This document shows, in pieces, positions 4,371 through 8,115 of a stretch of 39,111 nt of DNA. Location: assembly GCF_015354405.1 (NCBI RefSeq), contig NZ_JADKYP010000059.1:1-39111 (forward strand), given 5' to 3'. The translations under genes and the position numbers were made by a program. Source of the stretch: Nocardia sp. BSTN01 (GTDB lineage: Bacteria > Actinomycetota > Actinomycetes > Mycobacteriales > Mycobacteriaceae). Numbering within the stretch: the first letter of the stretch is position 1; each line of letters starts with the position of its first letter. The notes under the pieces were generated by a model, which did no database searches, was not told where the DNA came from, and saw only the letters and a list, made by a program, of their open reading frames with translations.

Positions 4371-4799
4371 TTATTCCGTGACCATTCCGATGGCGACCGC
4401 GACCGGCTTGTCGGCCTCACTCTTGGACAGGCACACCAGCTTCGCGGTCCCCAGCGCCACATTCGGGCTGCCGTCGAACTTCGAGCCGGGGTTCTCCGCG
4501 ATAATGCGGTCCATCAGGGACTTCTCACCCTCGATATCGAGTTTGCGGAACTCGTCGCAGGTGGTCGCCGAGGCCGGGCCCAGGCCGGAATGCTCCGGAT
4601 GCGCGGTGGTGCCGGGCGTCTCGGCCGGCGGCGCCGGTGCGGGGGTCGTCGACGACGCGGGAGCGGGGGCCGAGGTCGCGACGGCCGAACCGTTTCTGCG
4701 CAGGCCGTTGGCATCGGCGGACGAATGGTCGTCGCCGCAGCCGGTGAGGGCGACGGTCAGCGCGCCCAGGGCGACGGCCGTCACGGTCAGTCGTTTCAT
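4371..4799 (-). CDS. Secreted lipoprotein with two-cysteine C-terminal domain, GLRRN motif
   Basis: 142 residues. The signal MKRLTVTAVALGALTVALTGC ends in an LTGC lipobox, which fixes the ATG at 4799 rather than an upstream in-frame start. A Pro/Ala/Thr-rich spacer containing GLRRNGS follows. A compact domain of about 60 residues then carries TTCDEFRKLD near its start and AKLVCLS near its end; two cysteines bracketing a helical core are reminiscent of HdeA-like periplasmic proteins, but I would not assign that family. It is monocistronic by spacing (116 bases to the next lipoprotein gene, 145 from the kinase gene upstream). Function unknown. Confidence 0.7.
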   Translation of the reverse strand: MKRLTVTAVALGALTVALTGCGDDHSSADANGLRRNGSAVATSAPAPASSTTPAPAPPAETPGTTAHPEHSGLGPASATTCDEFRKLDIEGEKSLMDRIIAENPGSKFDGSPNVALGTAKLVCLSKSEADKPVAVAIGMVTE

Positions 4800-4841
4800 C
4801 TCGTGCGTAACCCCCGAGTGGTCCGGCAACGCCGAATCTCC

Positions 4842-4857
4842 TCCGGCGCGCGCCGGA
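4842..4857. repeat. 16-bp perfect GC palindrome
   Basis: TCCGGCGCGCGCCGGA reads the same on both strands, and part of it (CCTCCGGCGCG) is repeated just after at 4860-4870. It lies between the kinase terminator and the lipoprotein start. It may be a transcription-attenuating hairpin or an operator. Confidence 0.5.
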
Positions 4858-4901
4858 TGCCTCCGGCGCGGCTCGCAGCGTACCGGCCACATCGGCGATT
4901 G

Positions 4902-4926
4902 AAAACCCCGGCCTTACCGCGGGGTT
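4902..4926 (-). terminator. Rho-independent terminator of the kinase operon
   Basis: On the minus strand AACCCCG, a 9-base loop, CGGGGTT and then a T-run (GGGGTTTTC). It begins 19 bases after the kinase stop codon. It is one of the few hairpins here with a U-tract. Confidence 0.75.
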
Positions 4927-4944
4927 CGGATCGAATTGCGGCCC

Positions 4945-6432
4945 TTACGATTCGGTGGCAGCGGGGTCCGAACCACGTCCGGAGGCCGCCTCCAGCGGCA
5001 ACCGGACGACGAATCGGGTGTCGCCCGGCGTGGACTCGACCCGGATGTCGCCGCCGTGCTTGTTCACCACGATGCGGAACGAGATGTCGAGGCCGAGTCC
5101 GGTGCCCTCACCGACGGGTTTCGTGGTGAAGAAGGGCTCGAAGATCCGATCCCGCAACTCTTCCGGCACGCCCGGTCCGGTATCGGCGATCTCCACTGCG
5201 GCACAGTCGTTTTCGCGATAGGTCCGTACCGTGAGCGTGCCGGATCCGTTCATCGCCGCCACCGCGTTGTCGATGAGGTTGGTCCACACCTGGTTCAATT
5301 CCGCTGCGTAGCAAGGAACTTCGGGCAGTGCCCGGTCGTACTCCTTGACCACGGCGATGTCGTCGCCGATCTTGCGGGCCAGCATCACCAGCGTGCTGTC
5401 GAGCAGTTCGTGGATGTCGACCACCTGGAACGGCGCCCGATCCATCTGTGAATACTGCTTGGCCGCATGGACGAGCGAGGAGATGCGCCCGGTCGAATCG
5501 GTGATCTCGTTCATCAGCAGTTCGGTTTCGACGGTGTAGTTCAACCACCGGATCGCACCTTCGAACACTCCGTCGTCGCAGTGTTCGAGAGTGCCCGCGA
5601 CCTTCTCCAGCCAATCGATGTCGAAGCCGGCCTGGACGAAATTCGGTGCCAGATCCCATCCGTTGGCGATGTTGTGATCGGCGAGCCAGTCGCCGAGTTC
5701 GTCCTCGCGGTCGGCCGCCTCCATCGCGGTCAGGGTCGGCGCCTTGGCCACCTGGGTGGCCGCCTCCTCCTGGAGCTGCACCAGCGCCTCGAGCGCGGCG
5801 GAGTCGAACTTGCCGTGCGCCATCATCTTCAGCTTGTGCCGCATACCGGCGACCCGATCCCGCAGCGAGGAGGTGGCCCGCACCGCGGCCGCCGCGGGAT
5901 TGTTCAACTCGTGGGTGAGCCCGGCCGACAGCGAACCCAAGGCCAGCAATCGTTCCCGCCGGCCGATGATCTCGTTGGTGTTGCGGTTGCCGAAGAACGC
6001 GCCCTCCAGCAGATGCAGGGCCATCGGGAACCATTCCTGCATCATCCGGGCGAAGGTCTCCGCGTCCAGGACGAAGAACTTCGACGGTTTCGTCACCGTG
6101 AGCGAACCCGTGTAGTTCTGGTCGGCCCGCTCGCCCATATACGCCGTCCACGCGCCGGCATACGAGCCGCGATGATCGGTGCGAACGAGTTCGAGATTCT
6201 CGCCCGCGGACAGCTTCGAGAGCACCACCTCACCGTCCATCAGGACGTAGAAGCAGGTCGCGAGCTCACCCTCGCGGTAGACCGGACCCGGTTCGAAGTG
6301 TTCGACCCGGCCCTCCCGGCAGAGCCAGGCCAGCTGTTCGTCGTCGAGCTTCTCGAAGAGGAACAGGGTGCGCAGTTCCGCCGGATCACACAGGGTCCGG
6401 GAGCCGGTGACCGTGCGGTTGTCGTCGCTCAC
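4945..6432 (-). CDS. Soluble sensor histidine kinase with cNMP-fold N-terminal domain
   Basis: 495 residues, no membrane segment. Residues 20-145 resemble a cyclic-nucleotide-binding beta-roll (FYVLMDGEVVL at 61-71), but the phosphate-binding cassette is not canonical: no FGE...RxA is seen, so it may bind another ligand. The H-box is LSAGLTHELNNPAAAA with His174. The catalytic domain has N-box NLIDN (385-389), G1 DTGPG (417-421), F-box FEPFFTT and G2 GEGTGLGL (441-448). About 100 extra residues separate the His helix from the second dimerisation helix (near 318-330), an unusual insertion. The GTG start has AGGAGG 5 bases upstream. It follows the receiver-flavoprotein gene by 9 bases, so the two are one operon and very probably cognate partners. 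Confidence 0.92.
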   Translation of the reverse strand: MSDDNRTVTGSRTLCDPAELRTLFLFEKLDDEQLAWLCREGRVEHFEPGPVYREGELATCFYVLMDGEVVLSKLSAGENLELVRTDHRGSYAGAWTAYMGERADQNYTGSLTVTKPSKFFVLDAETFARMMQEWFPMALHLLEGAFFGNRNTNEIIGRRERLLALGSLSAGLTHELNNPAAAAVRATSSLRDRVAGMRHKLKMMAHGKFDSAALEALVQLQEEAATQVAKAPTLTAMEAADREDELGDWLADHNIANGWDLAPNFVQAGFDIDWLEKVAGTLEHCDDGVFEGAIRWLNYTVETELLMNEITDSTGRISSLVHAAKQYSQMDRAPFQVVDIHELLDSTLVMLARKIGDDIAVVKEYDRALPEVPCYAAELNQVWTNLIDNAVAAMNGSGTLTVRTYRENDCAAVEIADTGPGVPEELRDRIFEPFFTTKPVGEGTGLGLDISFRIVVNKHGGDIRVESTPGDTRFVVRLPLEAASGRGSDPAATES

Positions 6433-6441
6433 GTGCGCCTC

Positions 6442-8115
6442 CTACTGCTTCGCGAGGTATCGGTGGACCAGCATGACCGCCATCGCGCCCTCGCCGACCG
6501 CGGACGCGACCCGCTTCGCCGACTCCGAACGCACATCACCGGCGACGAAAACGCCCGGGATGCTGGTTTCGAGATGATGGGGTGGGCGGGGCAGTTCCCA
6601 GCCCGGCGGCCGCGTACCGTCGACCATCAGATCGGGTCCGGCCAGCACGTAGCCGGATTCGTCGCGGATGAGATGCCCGTCCAGCCAGTCCGTTTCGGGC
6701 GCCGCGCCGATGAACAGGAACAGCCGTTCGGCGTCGACCTTGTCTTCCGCGCCGGTCGCGTTGTTGCGCAACACGATTCGTTCCAGATGATCGCTGCCGT
6801 CGGCGGCCACGACCTCGGTGTTGGTGCGCACCTTGATATTCGGCACGGCCTCGATCTGCCGGATCAGATAGTGCGACATCGATTGGTCGAGCGAACTGCC
6901 GCGTACCAGGATGTGCACCGTGCAGGCGTGCCGGGACAGGAAGACCGCCGCCTGCCCGGCCGAATTCGCCCCGCCGACGATGTAGACCTCGCGATCGGCG
7001 CAATCGGCCGCCTCGGTCATCGCCGAGCCGTAGTAGACGCCGCGGCCGGTGAAATCGTCCACCCCGGGCGCGGGATGGTGCCGGTAGTTGACGCCGGTGG
7101 CGATCAGCACGGCGTGGGCGCTGACGCAGGAGCCGTCGGAGAACAGCACCCGCCGGGCGGAACCGCACGCCTCCAGTCCGACCACCTCGCGCGCAGTGAT
7201 CAGTTCGGCGCCGAATTTCACCGCCTGGCGCCGCGCCCGATCGGCCAGCTGGGCACCCGAAAGCCCGTCGGGGAAGCCGAGATAATTCTCGATCCGGGAA
7301 CTCTGCCCGGCCTGCCCGCCGGTGGCGGTGCGCTCCACCAGCACCGTGCGCAGCCCCTCGGACGCGCCGTATACGGCCGCGCCGAGTCCGGCCGGACCGC
7401 CACCCACCACGATGAGGTCGTAGAACTCACCACTCGGATCGGTATTCAGCCCCACGCAATCGGCCAGTTCGCTGTCGGAGGGCGACAGCAGCACGTTGCC
7501 GCTCGGATCGATCACCACGGGGCACTGTTCGGCGTCGGCGCCGGCGGCCTCGAGCAGACGTAGGCCCTCCGGATCGTCGGCGAGATACCAGCGATACGGC
7601 AGCTGATTGCGGGCCAGGAATTCGCGCACCTCGGAACTGCGAGCCGACCAGCGGTGACCGATCACCTTCGTCTCGTGCACCGGACGGCGGTCGTCGCCAC
7701 GCCACGATTCCAGCAGCGCGTCGACCACCGGATACAACTTCTCCTCCGGCGGATCCCACGGTTTGAGCAGATAGTGGTCGAGGTCGACCACATTGATGGC
7801 GTCGATGGCGGCATTGGTGTCGGCATAGGCGGTCAGCAGCACCCGCCGCGCATAGGGGTGCAGGTCGATCGCGTGCTCCAGGAATTGAATGCCGTCCATA
7901 CCCGGCATTCGATAATCGGCGATCAGCACCGCGACCGGCTGGCCGCGCAATTTCAGTTCGCGCAGCACGTCCAGTGCCGCGGCACCGGATTCCGCGCGCA
8001 TGATGCGATAGTCGGCTCCGTAGCGCCGCCGCAGGTCGCGCACCACGGCCCGGGAGACGCCGGGGTCGTCGTCGACACTGAGAATTACCGGTTTGACGGC
8101 AGCTGGTGAAGTCAC
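6442..8115 (-). CDS. Response-regulator receiver fused to thioredoxin-reductase-like flavoprotein
   Basis: 557 residues in three parts. Residues 8-130 are a complete receiver: acidic pocket DDD15-17, phospho-acceptor Asp67 (IADYRMPGMDG), Thr95 and Lys118 (LLKPW). Residues about 147-222 resemble a glutaredoxin/thioredoxin fold without a CxxC. Residues 230-557 are a thioredoxin-reductase-like flavoprotein, with FAD site GGGPAG (238-243), GGQAG, NAD(P)H site GGANSAG (381-387) and C-terminal VFVAGD. Where true thioredoxin reductases have the redox pair CATC, this protein has GSAM (363-366), so it cannot reduce thioredoxin by the usual route. No DNA-binding domain is present, so the phosphorylation output appears to be enzymatic. 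The GTG start fits a leaderless transcript (TACTTT 5 bases upstream). The likely partner is the downstream kinase. Confidence 0.93.
   Translation of the reverse strand: MTSPAAVKPVILSVDDDPGVSRAVVRDLRRRYGADYRIMRAESGAAALDVLRELKLRGQPVAVLIADYRMPGMDGIQFLEHAIDLHPYARRVLLTAYADTNAAIDAINVVDLDHYLLKPWDPPEEKLYPVVDALLESWRGDDRRPVHETKVIGHRWSARSSEVREFLARNQLPYRWYLADDPEGLRLLEAAGADAEQCPVVIDPSGNVLLSPSDSELADCVGLNTDPSGEFYDLIVVGGGPAGLGAAVYGASEGLRTVLVERTATGGQAGQSSRIENYLGFPDGLSGAQLADRARRQAVKFGAELITAREVVGLEACGSARRVLFSDGSCVSAHAVLIATGVNYRHHPAPGVDDFTGRGVYYGSAMTEAADCADREVYIVGGANSAGQAAVFLSRHACTVHILVRGSSLDQSMSHYLIRQIEAVPNIKVRTNTEVVAADGSDHLERIVLRNNATGAEDKVDAERLFLFIGAAPETDWLDGHLIRDESGYVLAGPDLMVDGTRPPGWELPRPPHHLETSIPGVFVAGDVRSESAKRVASAVGEGAMAVMLVHRYLAKQ

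Follow-up and report, generated by a model that had tools for sequence, protein, structure and literature searches.

A sensor histidine kinase of Nocardia sp. BSTN01 probably controls a thioredoxin reductase (TrxR)-like flavin reductase that has lost both of its CxxC cysteine pairs, as judged from comparisons of related genes. The reductase is the output of a response regulator, whose gene lies next to the kinase gene in a 39,111-nt stretch of DNA (contig NZ_JADKYP010000059.1 of assembly GCF_015354405.1), which we call the window. An earlier note on this DNA had the correct open reading frame and did not state its strand, which is minus (Table 1). Response regulators that join a receiver (REC) to a thioredoxin reductase (TrxB) were already catalogued; among the papers that our searches listed, we found no report of the double loss of cysteines or of a link to a UBP-type zinc-finger gene. 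Many response regulators switch genes. If this one switches electron flow, phosphorylation would here have a rapid redox output, and the UBP-type zinc finger provides a named, testable candidate partner.

Table 1. Features of the regulator and the kinase (coordinates are positions in the window)
Feature	Position	Strand	Basis or remark
Response regulator with glutaredoxin-like and TrxR-like output, 557 aa	6442..8115	-	GTG start; stop included
Receiver domain, residues 10-140	7696..8088	-	PF00072 at 11-123, over cutoff
Asp67 codon (receiver phospho-Asp position)	7915-7917	-	
Glutaredoxin-like domain, residues 149-221, without CxxC	7453..7671	-	Predicted model; CxxC-bearing relatives match PF00462
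Absent glutaredoxin redox site, WSARS, residues 156-160	7636..7650	-	WCPDC, WCGDC or WCPEC in intact relatives
TrxR-like FAD/NAD(P)H domain, residues 231-556	6448..7425	-	Profile, sequence and fold matches
Absent reductase redox site, GSAM, residues 363-366	7018..7029	-	CATC in TrxR
Cys372	7000..7002	-	Invariant only in the close set
Arg535	6511..6513	-	Marks the CxxC-less family; CxxC enzymes have Gln
Histidine kinase, 495 aa	4945..6432	-	9 bases downstream of the regulator gene
Kinase N-terminal cyclic-nucleotide-binding-type fold, about residues 20-135	6028..6375	-	PF00027 at 50-133, below cutoff
Kinase His174, putative phospho-acceptor	5911..5913	-	Inferred from the H-box
Helical insertion in the kinase dimerisation hairpin, about residues 206-286	5575..5817	-	Alignment and model
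Kinase HATPase_c domain, residues 378-481	4990..5301	-	Pfam

A flavoprotein without its cysteine pairs

The regulator consists of a receiver, a glutaredoxin-like domain, and a TrxR-like domain for FAD and NAD(P)H, in that order. Pfam identified Response_reg (residues 11-123) and Pyr_redox_2 (232-543) and found no DNA-binding domain, which agrees with the earlier note. The best NCBIfam profile was thioredoxin reductase (TIGR01292), at 219.9 bits, which is under the cutoff of 343.45. Among solved structures, the best sequence matches were TrxRs (151 bits), then AhpF (108 bits), and then TrxR-like FNRs (62 bits). A structure model from 46 input sequences (the window's and those of 45 of the 80 close loci described below) is of moderate confidence (pLDDT 79.1, pTM 0.55), with pLDDT below 50 in the flavin loops. 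The 50 best Foldseek matches to this model were TrxRs and AhpF, and the modelled chain ends one residue past its last helix, where the TrxR-like helix ends. Residues 149-221 are modelled as beta-alpha-beta-alpha-beta-beta-alpha, as in glutaredoxins. The earlier note had described this middle domain as thioredoxin-like and lacking CxxC; the lack of CxxC holds, but glutaredoxin-like seems to be the better name because the aligned domain matches PF00462 in all three of the relatives with intact motifs that were tested (L179, L131, and L134). The regulator itself gives no match to PF00462 in Pfam.

The CxxC of the reductase site is missing from all 81 sequences of the close set (the window and the best 80 of 516 matching stretches) and from all 59 members of a diverse CxxC-less set, whereas it is present in all 26 enzymes of a comparison group (six rows of the tree described below and 20 TrxRs taken as controls). 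The glutaredoxin site also lacks CxxC in every one of the 81 and the 59 sequences. The earlier note saw CATC replaced by GSAM in the regulator, and the absence of CxxC at this site is consistent across homologues; aligning GSAM with CATC requires a one-residue gap, which makes SAMT an equally fair counterpart. We also considered whether a CxxC elsewhere in the protein might have taken over, and rejected this, as neither set has a conserved one. Such motifs occur in three of the 81 close sequences (L007 at 372-375, L045 at 210, and L049 at 420) and, from residue 145 onward, in one of the 59 diverse members (L089). The earlier note had been concerned with a CxxC in close homologues that could reach the flavin: none is conserved, and the one exception is L007, whose motif includes Cys372.

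To describe the history of the family, we use a tree of 65 rows: the 59 CxxC-less members and six with CxxC. These six are the genome's own TrxR (L002, with CATC) and five glutaredoxin-TrxR fusions (L179, L131, L132, and L133 with CATC, and L134 with CASC). All five fusions also have CxxC in the glutaredoxin domain, and a truncated relative, L183, has both motifs too. In the tree, which is midpoint-rooted for drawing, a single 100/100 branch separates all 59 CxxC-less rows from the six with CxxC. The simplest history would be a single lineage that lost both pairs; the tree is unrooted, and the opposite gain is formally possible. Since L002 lies elsewhere in the genome, we rejected the idea that the window's protein is the cell's sole thioredoxin reductase.

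The CxxC-less family conserves the FAD motifs (GGGPAG and GD) and the NAD(P)H motif (GGANSA), in line with the full flavoprotein of the earlier note. It also has residues of its own. Arg535 is present in all 59 members, and the 26 CxxC enzymes all have Gln there. Gln388 and Ser252 are found in 60 and 58 of 60 rows, respectively (the window counted twice); the CxxC enzymes have Glu (25 of 26) and Arg (26 of 26) at these positions. Glu368 is found in 52 of 59 members, and 25 of the 26 CxxC enzymes have Asp. In E. coli TrxR, the Asp beside the second cysteine serves in acid-base catalysis; on that view, the CxxC-less family retains a carboxylate. Overall, the family has been coherently retooled and has not decayed.

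A full-length member of the family is present in 54 of the 59 genomes of the genus that we searched. The family is widespread, being found also in Streptomyces, Rhodococcus, and Pseudonocardia and on plasmids of Deinococcus, cyanobacteria, and Burkholderiales. Some family members are annotated as thioredoxin-disulfide reductase, a reaction that the CxxC-less form can hardly run by the usual mechanism.

The kinase and the zinc-finger gene

The Asp pair, phospho-Asp, Thr, and Lys of the receiver (Asp16, Asp67, Thr95, and Lys118) are invariant across the 81 close sequences; the earlier note had pointed to the last three. On the kinase side, the putative phospho-acceptor His is conserved in all 113 aligned kinases. 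The N-terminal domain of the window's kinase scores 27.1 bits against PF00027, where the cutoff is 27.5 bits. Cyclic nucleotide (cNMP)-binding domains have a phosphate cassette, GE...R.A. By eye, the cassette looks intact in the distant L166, L167, and L168 and degenerate in the window's clade, and the ligand of this domain in the window's clade is probably not a cyclic nucleotide.

An insertion of ~80 residues lies in the kinase's dimerisation hairpin; Deinococcus, cyanobacterial, and Paraburkholderia kinases have it too. In 40 kinase rows, the distance from the H-box to the second dimerisation helix is 108-124 residues. We aligned the window's kinase with those of 44 of the 80 close loci; the kinase model is weak (pLDDT 74.8, pTM 0.37) and shows the insertion as helical. 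The best 50 matches of a fold search with the kinase were ordinary histidine kinases.

All 80 close loci contain a match to the kinase. In 79 of them, at most 135 bases separate the regulator match from the start of the kinase match; in L063, the two are about 4 kb apart. Another locus (L162, 656-5003) has three kinases of the window's type in tandem behind a single regulator.

The kinase also follows the state of the receiver. In an alignment of 157 proteins or pieces (short duplicate loci and twice-fetched loci excluded), a window-type kinase is encoded in the neighbouring DNA examined for every one of the 108 proteins whose receiver is intact, versus none of 46 proteins or pieces without intact receiver residues; kinases were detected solely through their similarity to that of the window (score >150), divergent kinases could escape, and the flanking DNA is short at some loci. 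The 108 comprise the window, the 80 close loci, and a further 27, among which are five near-copies of the window. The 46 include cNMP fusions, front-less proteins, seven CxxC enzymes, pieces of broken genes, and 15 paralogues with weak receivers; three cut or broken fragments that adjoin a kinase were excluded from the comparison. This co-occurrence is what a phosphorylation-dependent function would predict, in a sample of mixed kin that represents few independent events.

The 15 weak-receiver paralogues (L121-L126, L169-L176, and L129) lack a window-type kinase and are present in several copies per genome in three genomes (G042, G028, and G013). Pfam matched a receiver in two of the 10 that were tested, both below the cutoff. 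Three of the 15 (L121, L169, and L173) retain both Asp and the Lys and differ only at Thr95.

Other relatives seem to be one-component systems. Pfam found a cNMP domain ahead of the same core in L089, L144, L149, L142, and L145, and these fusions have no window-type kinase in the neighbouring DNA examined. They share the glutaredoxin-like and CxxC-less TrxR-like core, at about 39-50% identity. A sensing fold of one kind is thus found either within the kinase or attached straight to the reductase, which suggests a common output for the two arrangements. A thioredoxin gene adjoins six of the cNMP-type relatives (L115, L128, L130, L138, L144, and L148). On two plasmids (L144, 1-7233, and L148, 1-7299), the cNMP-fused CxxC-less gene ends a run of genes for dnaK, grpE, a J-domain protein, cbpM, clpB, and trxA, with a UBP gene after trxA in L144. 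This run is possibly a stress island.

A gene for a UBP-type zinc-finger protein follows the kinase in 71 of the 80 close loci (in the opposite direction in L021). The domain, which is rich in cysteine, was confirmed by Pfam in each protein tested (L006, L144, L088, and L180). Among the nine close loci without it, the L049 sequence stops about 270 bases past the kinase. There is no UBP gene in the window's operon (at 4371-4945) or in those of the five nearest relatives fetched (L187-L191); L192-L194 do have one in the operon. On other contigs of the window's genome, we found one lone UBP protein (G000:C154:32857-33039), whose tail motif looks the same by eye. Contig C110 of this genome (L181, 4505-6925) encodes a membrane-transporter-like protein that carries a UBP domain at its C terminus and by eye resembles Na+/H+ antiporters.

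Farther away, in an even sample of the phylum, a UBP domain was found near five of 18 loci with a receiver and a kinase (L153, L154, L165, L166, and L168, from L153-L168, L120, and L137, some of which are cut by contig ends); the match in L153 is split across two frames, and L166 has the UBP domain and the kinase in a single fusion protein (UBP domain at 40.4 bits in Pfam, cutoff 22.7). A UBP domain is also found near cNMP-type or front-less relatives (L144, L115, L130, L138, L184-L186, L145, L147, L177, and L088), where the cNMP labels are by kinship and five were tested with Pfam. Among the cNMP-type relatives fetched, 10 of 17 have it in the neighbouring DNA examined, and several of these are near-identical Nocardia. 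By genome, 21 of the 29 in the phylum sample with a CxxC-less member contain a UBP domain, versus 10 of the 120 without (P = 5e-12, Fisher's exact test, counted by hand, with genome size and kinship uncontrolled; the 120 include the five genomes whose glutaredoxin fusions all carry CxxC). Overall, the link is strong among the close loci but becomes patchy further out.

The UBP zinc-finger protein is our leading candidate for a partner of the regulator. Our literature searches found no paper on the role of this zinc finger in bacteria. Other recurrent neighbours, from genes called with a rough script, were patchy and led nowhere; they include DUF4032 (25 of 96 loci), a protein with a beta-lactamase fold, and a regulator of the LuxR type.

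What the regulator might do

The best explanation, in which we have about even confidence, is a kinase-gated NAD(P)H flavoreductase that passes electrons directly from FAD, without dithiols. The earlier note had proposed that phosphorylation may gate electron transfer, and our comparisons support its interpretation in part. The kinase would read a signal via its cyclic-nucleotide-binding-type domain and phosphorylate Asp67, and NAD(P)H would reduce the FAD. Neither station of the relay that runs from FAD through the reductase CxxC to the glutaredoxin CxxC is left, so electrons would go straight from the reduced flavin to an acceptor, as in the TrxR-like ferredoxin/flavodoxin reductases. The receiver would most likely control how the two reductase domains swing or how accessible the flavin is. 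We infer the phosphorylation, turnover, direct transfer, and gating from several features: the retained FAD and NAD(P)H motifs, the new family-wide signature, the single CxxC-less branch, the kinase at every close locus with its conserved phospho-acceptor, the match between receivers and kinases, and, by analogy, the CxxC-less TrxR-like enzymes described in a passage of PMC10294844. However, the receiver-kinase match goes back to a small number of evolutionary events, and many of the 46 proteins or pieces, cNMP fusions among them, simply have no receiver. In sequence, the regulator is nearer to TrxR than to the known FNRs. The chain ends with the TrxR-like helix, so the C-terminal residue that in FNRs stacks on the flavin of the other subunit may be absent. 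The model has poorly defined flavin loops.

It is also possible, if somewhat unlikely, that the protein is a redox-sensing response regulator: without turnover, its flavin would read the level of NAD(P)H or of an oxidant, combine this with phosphorylation, and bind the kinase or the zinc-finger partner. This would fit with the absence of both exits for electrons while the cofactor sites are retained, with a partner gene that encodes a small zinc-finger protein and not an obvious electron carrier, and with the UBP-kinase fusion in L166, which would suit a signalling complex. However, Glu368 preserves a carboxylate where the CxxC enzymes have Asp, the nearest outgroup is enzymes, and the fusion of receivers to metabolic enzymes so as to regulate them is an established theme, according to a passage of PMC5847659. 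Altered thiol chemistry, in which Cys372 or the cysteines of a partner (the zinc-finger protein or thioredoxin) accept electrons from the flavin, seems quite unlikely to us. The earlier note overlooked two cysteines that bear on this. Cys372 is present in all 81 close sequences and, in the diverse set, in 22 of 28 receiver proteins, 11 of 13 cNMP proteins, and 2 of 18 other members; a cysteine at position 358, just ahead of the reductase site, is present in 31 of the 81 close sequences, though not in the window. Thioredoxin genes beside several cNMP-type relatives and the cysteine-rich UBP domain would also fit. But given its absence from the other six receiver proteins, two cNMP proteins, and 16 other members, we rejected Cys372 as a universal catalytic residue. 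It aligns five residues past the second cysteine of CATC and probably lies away from the flavin, and there is no second conserved cysteine among the 81 close sequences. We consider Cys372 to be specific to the clade, where it may have a redox role.

Finally, the loss of both redox motifs and a gene in pieces in L118 and L143 might suggest a decaying or inactive relic, which we consider extremely unlikely: the 46 aligned regulators, at 69-88% identity to the window's, share dozens of invariant residues, the gene pair is conserved at all 80 close loci, and full-length members are found in most genomes of the genus.

Building on the flavoreductase explanation, we can imagine a three-part redox system comprising the cNMP-fold kinase, the REC-glutaredoxin-flavoreductase, and the UBP protein. 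Phosphorylation would directly switch the dithiol-free flavoreductase, the UBP protein would be its acceptor or a redox-controlled target, and a one-component form would also occur beside chaperone and thioredoxin genes. As a whole, this scheme is speculative and seems unlikely.

Comparison with known systems

As the earlier note stated, this kind of fusion is already known. A passage of PMC5847659 mentions a receiver with thioredoxin reductase as a Mycobacterium-like combination, and a table row in PMC9953108 lists TrxB among response regulators. These REC-TrxB proteins have the same architecture as the window's regulator, going by the descriptions in these passages. The passages name thioredoxin reductase or TrxB and say nothing of absent cysteines, of a domain like glutaredoxin, or of a zinc-finger gene. 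Among the open-literature papers listed by our searches, no title or opening lines indicated a study of how REC-TrxB proteins work biochemically, of their loss of cysteines, or of a link to UBP genes, and passages of PMC3164672 and PMC4618731 held nothing of use.

Low-Mr TrxR (TrxB) shares its fold and its FAD and NAD(P)H motifs with the regulator, and TrxRs are its top matches in the PDB. In contrast to TrxR, the regulator lacks CATC, has Arg instead of Gln at position 535, and has added receiver and glutaredoxin-like domains. TrxR-like FNRs share the TrxR fold without CxxC; according to a passage of PMC10294844, they reduce ferredoxin, flavodoxin, or IsdG, with FAD giving electrons to a protein. 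However, their sequence similarity to the regulator is lower than that of the TrxRs, and the regulator has added regulatory domains. AhpF, like the regulator, has a thioredoxin-fold domain ahead of a TrxR unit. Foldseek aligned the model with AhpF structures (4o5q, 4xvg, and 1hyu) over 563-596 columns with an rmsd of 22-27, so the domains are placed differently. AhpF functions through CxxC pairs, whereas the regulator lacks both pairs and has a receiver in front; its WSARS replaces the WCxxC of the intact glutaredoxin-TrxR relatives. The cNMP/TrxR fusions are annotated as "cyclic nucleotide-binding domain-containing thioredoxin-disulfide reductase": they share the regulator's core, but their sensing domain is fused straight onto the reductase, and no window-type kinase accompanies them in the neighbouring DNA examined.
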